Of a DNA stretch of 64,000 nt, positions 9,476 through 11,750 are shown one piece after another (within the stretch, counting starts at the first letter, position 1; the number at the start of each line of letters is the position of its first letter). The position numbers and the translations under genes were made by a program. Below the pieces are notes generated by a model. That model did not search any database. It was not told the origin of the DNA and worked only from the letters and a program-made list of their open reading frames with translations. The stretch is from Actinomycetes bacterium (GTDB lineage Bacteria; Actinomycetota; Thermoleophilia; RBG-16-64-13), in NCBI GenBank assembly GCA_024637095.1, contig JAGXFV010000008.1:1-64000 (forward strand), given 5' to 3'.

Positions 9476-9852
9476 TTGCATCACCTCCATGAAAATGGTC
9501 CCCTGGAGAGGCGGCCGCAAACGGTGGATTCAAGGGGCCGGGGAGCATGCGATTCCTGACACAATTGGACTAGCGATTGTGGCAGGGCGGTGATAAGTTG
9601 AACCGTGAGTAGCTTAAGTCGGATGTCCGACCCGTCGGCCCCTCGCCTGGTTTAGGCGGATGGCTCGGCTGAAAGCGAACTCGACAACGAAGAGGGGCAA
9701 GCGTCAGGAAGGGAGTGATGCCTCTGGTTTGAGCTTTTACGCGCAAGTGCTGATCCTGGCCGAGGGCAAAACACCATTTATTGTCCGGACTGGGGTTGAG
9801 CGCGCCTCTCTTCGCCGAGAGGAGACTCAGAAGACATTACGGGAGGAAAATA
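9476..9852. other. Intergenic region between Rho-N gene and cytochrome gene
   Basis: 377 bases without a convincing gene. It holds the leader of the Rho-N gene on the minus strand and the leader of the cytochrome on the plus strand. A 68-codon plus-strand frame at 9660-9866 has no clear domain and runs into the cytochrome start, so I do not call it. A small hairpin (CCTCTC/GAGAGG, 9805-9822) sits about 30 bases before the cytochrome start codon. No convincing promoter or riboswitch was recognised. Confidence 0.5.
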
Positions 9853-11037
9853 GTGATCAAAAGTAGAAGAGCCACGCTGATCGTGTTTCTCACGATCGCT
9901 CTCGTGGCCATCGCCGGGGTAGCTTACGCCCAAACGGTGTACCCCTTCCCCGATGTGAACGCGAGCAACGAGCCGCACGTGGACGCCATCACGTGGGCGG
10001 CTGATCATGGGATCGTCGAAGGTTACGTAAACGGTAACTTCGGCCCCGCCGACAACATCCTGCGGCAGCAGGCTGCCAGCATGTTCATGCGCTACGACAC
10101 CTTTCTGCGTGGCAGCCTGAACGGCGGCGGCACGGCCAGCAGCTGCGCTGACTGTCACGACAGCAGCCAGTTGATCCCCGGCTACCAAGCCGCCTGGAGC
10201 GAATCGATGCACGCGACAGGCACAGCGTACGACTACGCCGGAGCCAGGGACGGCTGTACGGCTTGCCACTCCGGTGGGAGCTTCCAAGAGGCTGTGGCCG
10301 CGGGCCTGAACCCGGCTGAATTCGAAGAGACCAATCCTGAAGAAAACAATCCGACGCCCATCAACTGCCGCACCTGCCACCAGATCCACCTAAACGGCAC
10401 CGGTGCCGACTGGCAGCTGGAAACCGTCGCTGCCGTGGATCTATACGCGCCCGGACTCGAAGGCGTAACCTTCGACGGCGGCAAGGGCAACCTGTGCGCC
10501 AACTGCCACCAGCCGCGCCGTGTGTTCCCCGAAGCGAACGCCGAGGGTATGATCACCGGTATCAGCCCCCACTGGGGCCCGCACCATGGCCCGCAGAGCG
10601 CCACGCTCCTCGGCGTCGCCGCTGCCGGTGTTGACCCGGACGAGGACTATGTCAGCCCGCACATGGCGGTCCCCAACACCTGCGTGGGGTGCCATGTGGT
10701 CGACCCGCAGAGCCACACCTTTGAGGCCTCGCTCGACGCGTGCCAAGCCTGTCACGCGGGTGCCGACAGCTTCGACATCAATGGGGTCCAGACCTCGGTC
10801 GAAACTCGCCTCGCCGCCATCGGTACTGAGCTCGCCGACCTCGGCTTCCTCGATACCGCTGATGGCCACGCCACGGTGACCGAAGCTCCGGAAGCCGTCG
10901 CCATCGCCCTCTACAACTGGATCTACCTCTTCCACGAAGACGGTAGCATGGGTGTCCACAACCCGGCCTTCGTAGACGCGATGCTCGACGCCGCCGAAGC
11001 CAGCCTCGCCGAGTACACGGCAACTCTGGCTCCGTAA
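9853..11037 (+). CDS. Secreted SLH-domain hexahaem c-type cytochrome
   Basis: 394 residues from GTG 9853, chosen because GGGAGGA lies 6 bases upstream and because it places a signal peptide (IVFLTIALVAIAGVAYA, cleavage near residue 26) at the N-terminus; the track start at 9781 does not. Residues about 30-85 (YPFPDV, HVDAITWAADHGIVEGY, FGPADNILRQQAASMF) form an S-layer-homology-like domain. Six CxxCH haem sites follow: CADCH, CTACH, CRTCH, CANCH, CVGCH and CQACH, at about 98, 135, 172, 215, 277 and 297. The C-terminus has the EDGSMGVHNPAF segment seen in many multihaem cytochromes. It is likely exported and wall-anchored, acting in surface electron transfer. A strong terminator follows. Confidence 0.92.
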   Translation: MIKSRRATLIVFLTIALVAIAGVAYAQTVYPFPDVNASNEPHVDAITWAADHGIVEGYVNGNFGPADNILRQQAASMFMRYDTFLRGSLNGGGTASSCADCHDSSQLIPGYQAAWSESMHATGTAYDYAGARDGCTACHSGGSFQEAVAAGLNPAEFEETNPEENNPTPINCRTCHQIHLNGTGADWQLETVAAVDLYAPGLEGVTFDGGKGNLCANCHQPRRVFPEANAEGMITGISPHWGPHHGPQSATLLGVAAAGVDPDEDYVSPHMAVPNTCVGCHVVDPQSHTFEASLDACQACHAGADSFDINGVQTSVETRLAAIGTELADLGFLDTADGHATVTEAPEAVAIALYNWIYLFHEDGSMGVHNPAFVDAMLDAAEASLAEYTATLAP

Positions 11038-11068
11038 GCCTCGCATCACAAGTACGCAAGTACTGGAC

Positions 11069-11099
11069 GGGGCCGCCTTCGGGCGGCCCCGTTTTTTTT
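11069..11099. terminator. Bidirectional-looking intrinsic terminator
   Basis: A 9-bp GC stem (GGGGCCGCC/GGCGGCCCC) closed by a TTCG tetraloop and followed on the plus strand by eight T residues. It ends the cytochrome transcript. The stop codon of the convergent MaoC gene lies within the T-run, so that gene may use the same hairpin in reverse. Confidence 0.9.
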
Positions 11100-11541
11100 A
11101 TGCTTCCGGGGACAGCGCGACTGTGTAGCAGGTCGCGACGCCCTCCAATACAACCGTGCCGTCCGCGAGCACTACCCGCGTGCGCAGTTCGGTCAAGGGC
11201 TTATCTTCCCTTACATTGAGGACCTCCACCCCGCCGGTGATGACATCCCCGGGCCGGACAGGGGCCGGGAAGCTCCAGTTGACCTCCAGGAAGACGGTGC
11301 CCGGTCCGGGCAGATCCTCTGCCACGATCGCATTGAGAATGGCGCTGGTCACGCCGCCCTGCAGGATGATCCCCCCAAAGCGGGTCGCCCGAGCGGTCTC
11401 CTCATCGTAATGAAGGGGATTCCGGTCTCCGCTGAGTTCGGTAAAAAGTTGGATATCTCGCTGGGAGACGTGCCTGGATCGCCGGGCCCTCTGGCCCACT
11501 TCGGGACGGCCGTTCGGCCACACTCCTGTCACCGCCGCCAT
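11098..11541 (-). CDS. MaoC-like hot-dog dehydratase
   Basis: 147 residues starting at ATG 11541 behind GGGAGGAGGGG; the track extension to 11721 adds unrelated sequence. The hot-dog fold motif FTELSGDRNPLHYDEETA with the catalytic Asp/His pair, followed by GGIILQGGVTSAIL, is typical of MaoC/R-specific enoyl-CoA hydratases. The C-terminal half (PVRPGDVITGGVEVL) fits the same family. It probably hydrates or dehydrates a CoA- or ACP-bound acyl chain in the cytoplasm. No fatty-acid operon surrounds it. Confidence 0.85.
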   Translation of the reverse strand: MAAVTGVWPNGRPEVGQRARRSRHVSQRDIQLFTELSGDRNPLHYDEETARATRFGGIILQGGVTSAILNAIVAEDLPGPGTVFLEVNWSFPAPVRPGDVITGGVEVLNVREDKPLTELRTRVVLADGTVVLEGVATCYTVALSPEA

Positions 11542-11750
11542 GTCCCCCTCCTCCCTCGCCCGACTGCGAAAACCGTTGCGCTTTGGGCCGCGCGTACCGA
11601 GTATCCCCTCATCACTTCCACTTGTCTCGGTGCACACTGACCGCCTGGGGGGAGCCAAGACTGATCCTAAGGCGGGCGTGCGCCGACCCCCCGCTCTCTT
11701 ACACTGAGACTGTAGCCACAAGAGATCTCCACCGGCGGGAGGGACGAGAG

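Follow-up and report, generated by a model that had tools for sequence, protein, structure and literature searches.

Little is known about how single-membrane bacteria hold redox proteins outside a thick cell wall, and the surface cytochromes of cultured monoderms are attached either weakly or in an unclear manner. The stretch of DNA analysed here, referred to as the window (64,000 nucleotides from an Actinomycetes bacterium), raises the question of whether a cytochrome can bring its own anchor. One gene of the window encodes a hexahaem protein with the putative anchor, an SLH repeat, in the cytochrome itself, and the same genome encodes a homologue of OcwA mounted on a canonical three-repeat SLH region (the OcwA-SLH protein). 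The reading preferred here, to which a probability of about 60% is assigned, is that of a wall-anchored hexahaem electron-transfer cytochrome with an NrfA/OcwA-type core, probably forming an SLH homotrimer in the wall of a monoderm.

The cytochrome gene and its product

The hexahaem SLH cytochrome gene occupies positions 9853-11037 of the forward strand, as do all of the features located within it, and encodes 394 amino acids plus a stop codon from a GTG start codon at 9853. The start is preceded by a ribosome-binding site (GGGAGG, 9841-9846, forward strand), and this 5′ stretch has 58-59 of 60 bases in common with the same locus of a same-genus genome (L002). The preliminary description had placed a signal peptide, an SLH-like domain and six haem sites in one exported protein, a combination that is borne out by the sequence, the Pfam match and the motif count. 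The signal peptide (residues 1-26, 9853-9930) is a hydrophobic N-terminal segment closing with AYA/Q, after which a single SLH repeat, the anchor module, covers residues 31-75 (9943-10077) and matches the HMM PF00395 with an E-value of 3.5e-10 and 40.1 bits, above the Pfam cut-off of 20.8. The same N-terminal layout is found at loci L001, L002, L006 and L008. The CxxCH motifs begin at residues 98, 135, 172, 215, 277 and 297; when the protein was shuffled 20,000 times, the mean was 0.015 motifs and the maximum two.

Upstream of the gene lies a pair of ABC exporter genes and downstream a MaoC-like gene, all unrelated to it; it thus stands alone, with no cytochrome operon, which agrees with its earlier description as a single gene. 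Of the strong terminators also reported there, one was located, an intrinsic terminator downstream of the gene (11065-11094, forward strand; 13 pairs plus a T-run; z -5.9). The reported lack of cytochrome maturation genes likewise holds for the immediate surroundings but not for the genome, in which contig C4 carries a complete Ccm System I (a CcmA-type ATPase, CcmB, CcmC, two CcmE, CcmF and CcmH). ResB of System II gave no match in the genome searches.

A core akin to the NrfA-like half of OcwA

The core of the protein (residues 97-387) belongs to a widespread and apparently hitherto uncharacterised hexahaem family. In an AF2 model, helices at residues 309-329, 347-363 and 371-392 have pLDDT values over 90. 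A Foldseek search with this model against PDB and viral structures, limited by the haem-free state of the model, gave no significant match; the seven PDB entries that came first, with weak scores, are without exception nitrite or sulfite reductases of the multihaem type. Because of this limit, profile comparison was chosen instead. Among solved structures, the family profile matched OcwA (6I5B; E 1.4e-14) first, followed by the multihaem cytochrome 6qvm, NrfA (E 9.7e-9) and HAO, and hhalign aligned the core family to OcwA-type proteins (OcwA-SLH) with a probability of 99.3% (E 8e-21).

In the profile-profile alignment, haems 2-6 of the core fall on haems 5-9 of OcwA. Haem 1 (CADCH, 10144-10158) is invariant in an 86-sequence alignment of the family and has no counterpart among these OcwA haems. 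Haem 2 (CTACH, 10255-10269) is aligned with OcwA haem 5, which has an open distal site, and with the catalytic haem position of NrfA. Haem 3 (CRTCH, 10366-10380) is followed by the conserved H179 in a CxxCHxxH arrangement, haem 4 (CANCH, 10495-10509) is supported by the family and profile alignments, and haems 5 (CVGCH, 10681-10695) and 6 (CQACH, 10741-10755) are aligned with OcwA haems 8 and 9, respectively. The aligned pairs between the core and the OcwA-type protein place H120 on a conserved His, CRTCHQIH on CAVCHTVH, GPHHGPQ on VHHPQ, and DGSMGVHNPAF on DMSQGVHNPPY. The C-terminal helices, which contain the GVHNP motif with H369 (residues 309-392, 10777-11028), match the three-helix bundle of NrfA and OcwA. 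His244-His245 (10582-10587) aligns to VHHPQKE in the OcwA-SLH protein, OcwA and 6qvm. OcwA has two active-site haems; one of them, haem 5, is open on its distal side, over which a His-His pair lies (PMC6703420), and we read the aligned positions as identifying that pair with the VHHP motif. Nearly all rows of the 86-sequence alignment keep the haem motifs as well as His 120, 179, 244, 288 and 369; H244 is conserved in 86 of 86 and H245 in 65%. Of 99 family ORFs, 91 keep all six CxxCH motifs, and most of those that do not are truncated copies.

Collinear haems, a C-terminal helix bundle and a conserved distal His, all three present here, are among the marks of the NrfA/OcwA superfamily, which also include a haem packing that alternates between parallel and perpendicular. 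On the aligned positions, the core behaves like a small member of this superfamily, composed of the NrfA-like half of OcwA and one N-terminal haem, and the window protein is a relative of the C-terminal half of OcwA rather than an OcwA. OcwA from Thermincola potens (6I5B; PMC6703420) is the surface cytochrome of a monoderm, as is proposed for the window protein, and its haems 5-9, His-His pair and C-terminal GVHN helix bundle match the core one-to-one. Where an OcwA-type cytochrome has nine haems, two of them open with His-His pairs, the window protein has six haems and one such pair; the c554-like N-terminal half and the second open haem are missing. The window protein also has an SLH repeat of its own, whereas the OcwA paper (PMC6703420) mentions neither SLH nor S-layer. 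The pentahaem nitrite reductase NrfA (PF02335) has its C-terminal haem pair and helices in common with the core but differs in its CxxCK catalytic haem, all six motifs of the window protein being CxxCH, and in having neither the extra N-terminal haem nor the wall anchor.

Homology leads us to infer that haem 2 is open, as does the count of further conserved His, of which there are just five for the six haems. The preliminary description had called the protein a short haem wire; the core is not just that, because its counterpart in OcwA is the catalytic, NrfA-like half, whose His-His pair above the open haem has been retained. The protein might be anchored in the wall to reduce a small soluble substrate, be it nitrite, hydroxylamine or some other oxyanion, through open haem 2, and not mainly be a conduit to minerals or electrodes. 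The alignment of the core with NrfA, HAO and half of OcwA fits such a role, as does the count of conserved His, which suggests that one haem or more lacks bis-His ligation, and OcwA itself reduces nitrite and hydroxylamine, though with a kcat for nitrite of about 1 per min (PMC6703420). Dedicated reduction is nevertheless considered unlikely: typical NrfA has CxxCK where haem 2 is bound by CxxCH, the cytochrome gene has no dedicated NrfH gene next to it in the host genome, and the lipoprotein and wall anchors found on the core point to a function at the cell surface.

Proposed anchoring by one SLH repeat, and the host genome

The best PDB sequence match of the N-terminus is a chain of the single-SLH, trimeric OmpM1 (8bys). 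SLH anchors of monoderms usually have three repeats per chain (PMC10628300), whereas the window protein has one, the TRAE-type polymer-binding motif of which reads LRQQ. The AF2 model is also weak over this part (block means of pLDDT 51-67). Wall attachment is inferred because the repeat is single and LRQQ stands in place of the TRAE-type motif. In OmpM, three single-SLH chains can build one binding unit (PMC10628300). The single repeat is the main weak point of anchoring and the reason why trimerisation is expected; by analogy with OmpM, the chains must probably trimerise, wall anchoring by one repeat being plausible only if they do. OmpM and SlpA (PMC10628300, PMC9388160) resemble the window protein in having a signal peptide and then one SLH repeat, but they are trimeric outer-membrane β-barrels of diderms and are without haem.

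Should the single repeat fail to hold the protein in the wall, the cytochrome would be a secreted or membrane-proximal electron shuttle. The three-repeat rule, to which the host's own OcwA-SLH protein conforms, lends this some weight, as do Planctomycetota members of the family without a recognised anchor and the weakly bound OmhA of Carboxydothermus (PMC7829351). The anchor is, however, the best conserved part of the gene: between the window and L002 it is 97.5% identical (dS 0.14, dN 0.011), compared with 57.5% for the core (dS 0.70, dN 0.34). The single-SLH version of the core, found only in the window's own bacterial family, is moreover kept in five of the 399 genomes that were sampled across the class, and its layout also occurs on a trihaem paralogue. 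A free shuttle is accordingly regarded as improbable.

The host genome (2.47 Mb, 96.6% complete) looks monoderm, as had been supposed, with no match to Omp85, which is consistent with such an envelope. SLH repeats are associated with a wall polymer pyruvylated by CsaB. A CsaB-like pyruvyl transferase of the host reaches 204.9 bits with the CsaB model against a cut-off of 213.1 (PF04230, E 1.1e-34), and its gene adjoins MurJ and an SLH-M23 peptidase gene. Extracellular electron transfer, the role first suggested for the protein, is strongly supported by the genome context. In addition to the Ccm genes, NapC/NrfH-type quinol dehydrogenases are present, and a search for multihaem cytochromes and S-layer proteins found the OcwA-SLH protein, the SLH-M23 protein and, in the examined genome stretches, about 19 frames with at least three haem motifs, among them the SLH trihaem paralogue and a 27-haem protein. 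The OcwA-SLH protein has nine haems, and its OcwA region is followed by an Ig-like domain and three SLH repeats.

Several of these genes merit separate description. The OcwA-SLH protein (L125:7838-10411, contig C45:45837-48407; 857 aa) matches 6I5B over residues 36-570 (E 7.8e-62), and its copy in G001, a genome of the same genus, is 91% identical to it. The trihaem protein (L126:6912-7598, contig C49) has the same signal peptide and single-SLH anchor, with 52% identity over residues 2-104. On contig C16, a gene whose product of about 712 aa contains 27 CxxCH motifs (L121:4063-6198, reverse strand) lies beside that of a seven-haem protein, and this contig also holds the CsaB-like transferase and the SLH-M23 peptidase. 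Contig C25 (L120:2710-11892) carries a cluster of eight multihaem cytochromes with 6 to 12 haems, along with two membrane proteins that resemble, and may be, b-type cytochromes.

In the wall-anchored reading preferred here, the protein would most likely be a terminal or penultimate electron carrier. It would be exported and its six haems loaded by the Ccm system, and the SLH repeat would hold it in the monoderm actinobacterial cell wall, probably as a homotrimer, in which each chain contributes one of the three SLH units that a grip on the wall polymer requires. The core would comprise the extra N-terminal haem and a five-haem module equivalent to OcwA haems 5-9, with haem 2 open under the His-His pair. 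Electrons would pass from menaquinol through NapC/NrfH-type and other multihaem cytochromes to the hexahaem SLH protein, which would hand them on either to its OcwA-SLH partner or to a mineral, a small oxyanion or a shuttle, the open haem being a possible exit or catalytic site. Against this model stand the one SLH repeat with its LRQQ, the CsaB-like score below cut-off, the lack of a cytochrome operon, the weakly modelled SLH part and the absence of a significant Foldseek match.

Among known surface cytochromes, ANME MHC-A/B (PMC9012536) embody the same idea of a cytochrome fused into the S-layer, but they are archaeal and very large, with a DUF1608-type S-layer domain different from bacterial SLH. 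CwcA (TherJR_1122) of Thermincola has six haems and is proposed to span the monoderm wall; the available part of its account (PMC7911101) describes no anchor domain. OcwA (PMC6703420) and OmhA (PMC7829351) are cell-surface cytochromes of monoderms for which the available parts of the respective papers mention no SLH. A bacterial multihaem cytochrome with an SLH domain was not found in the literature searched, which was largely open-access.

A hexahaem family with varied anchors

Scanning one genome per species recovered six-haem relatives of the core in at least seven phyla, including Actinomycetota, Chloroflexota, Planctomycetota, Bacteroidota, Ignavibacteriota, Zixiibacteriota, Latescibacterota and others. 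The top Pfam matches of the window protein are Cytochrome_C7, Cytochrom_c3_2 and MtrC II/IV, and these models recur across the family (Cytochrome_C7 in 86 of 86 members, MtrC II/IV in 82 of 86), while the N-terminal part of the family profile also matches MtrC (E 1.5e-6). Every NCBIfam match of the window protein falls far under its cut-off, the OmcA/MtrC decahaem model TIGR03507 giving 18.9 bits against 209.3. The Pfam and MtrC matches would suit a generic multihaem cytochrome (a c7/c3 or MtrC-like wire) unrelated to OcwA and with all haems bis-His, a reading made very improbable by the collinear OcwA profile alignment over the core, which includes C-terminal helices not known from c7, c3 and MtrC. 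A plain c7/c3 or MtrC assignment was dropped after the OcwA profile match and the collinear hhalign alignment.

The anchors differ widely among these phyla. A lipobox is present in most members from Chloroflexota and Bacteroidota, and collagen-like repeats of the GPAG type usually come after it; overall, a simple pattern detects the lipobox in 65 of 87 members, and the Collagen model matches 30 of 86. Planctomycetota copies have a plain signal peptide and no recognised anchor. In another actinobacterial family, one hexahaem core is joined to five LGFP wall-binding repeats (L133:1318-3144; E 1.1e-60).

Between the window and the syntenic region of L002, the shift from the conserved anchor to the diverged core sets in across residues 81-112; neighbouring genes have dS values of 0.31-0.53, and the OcwA-SLH proteins of these two genomes are, for comparison, 91% identical. 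Two tandem SLH copies at L001 have anchors that are 89.6% identical and cores that are 47.5% identical, and one of these SLH-anchored cores nests inside a clade of Chloroflexota lipoproteins (100/100). In two Chloroflexota genomes, tandem copies likewise combine like anchors with unlike cores, and L134 shows the reverse, with a homogenised core and different anchors. In these sequence comparisons, anchor and core evolve as separate modules and the genes are mosaics, a state that either core import or anchor gene conversion can yield. A single origin of the SLH fusion was also considered but is not supported by the core tree: it has at least two label changes on starred branches, and 0% of bootstrap trees have one group.

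The SLH repeat would then be one of several swappable anchors put on the core in different phyla. More broadly, and only tentatively, the hexahaem half-OcwA core may be a mobile redox cartridge that is fitted across phyla to the surface anchor of each host (a lipid plus collagen-like stalk, a single SLH repeat or LGFP repeats), cores and anchors recombining independently, with the single-SLH version in monoderm Actinomycetota self-assembling into an 18-haem wall-bound trimer beside the OcwA-SLH terminal reductase. A core that resembles half of OcwA, a metal-reducing surface enzyme, and comes with its own wall-binding domain hints that redox modules are mounted interchangeably on the surface of single-membrane bacteria to pass electrons out of the cell, and the exchange between Chloroflexota and Actinomycetota suggests a route by which surface electron transfer could spread across unlike envelopes.

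In Chloroflexota and Bacteroidota, the core genes have recurring neighbours, namely a NapC/NirT-type quinol dehydrogenase, NrfD with 4Fe-4S partners, and cytochrome b561, which tie the hexahaem family to quinol-linked respiration. In the window, the MaoC-like gene downstream of the cytochrome gene (11098-11721, reverse strand) is missing at the otherwise syntenic L002; gene content thus shifts right beside the diverged core.
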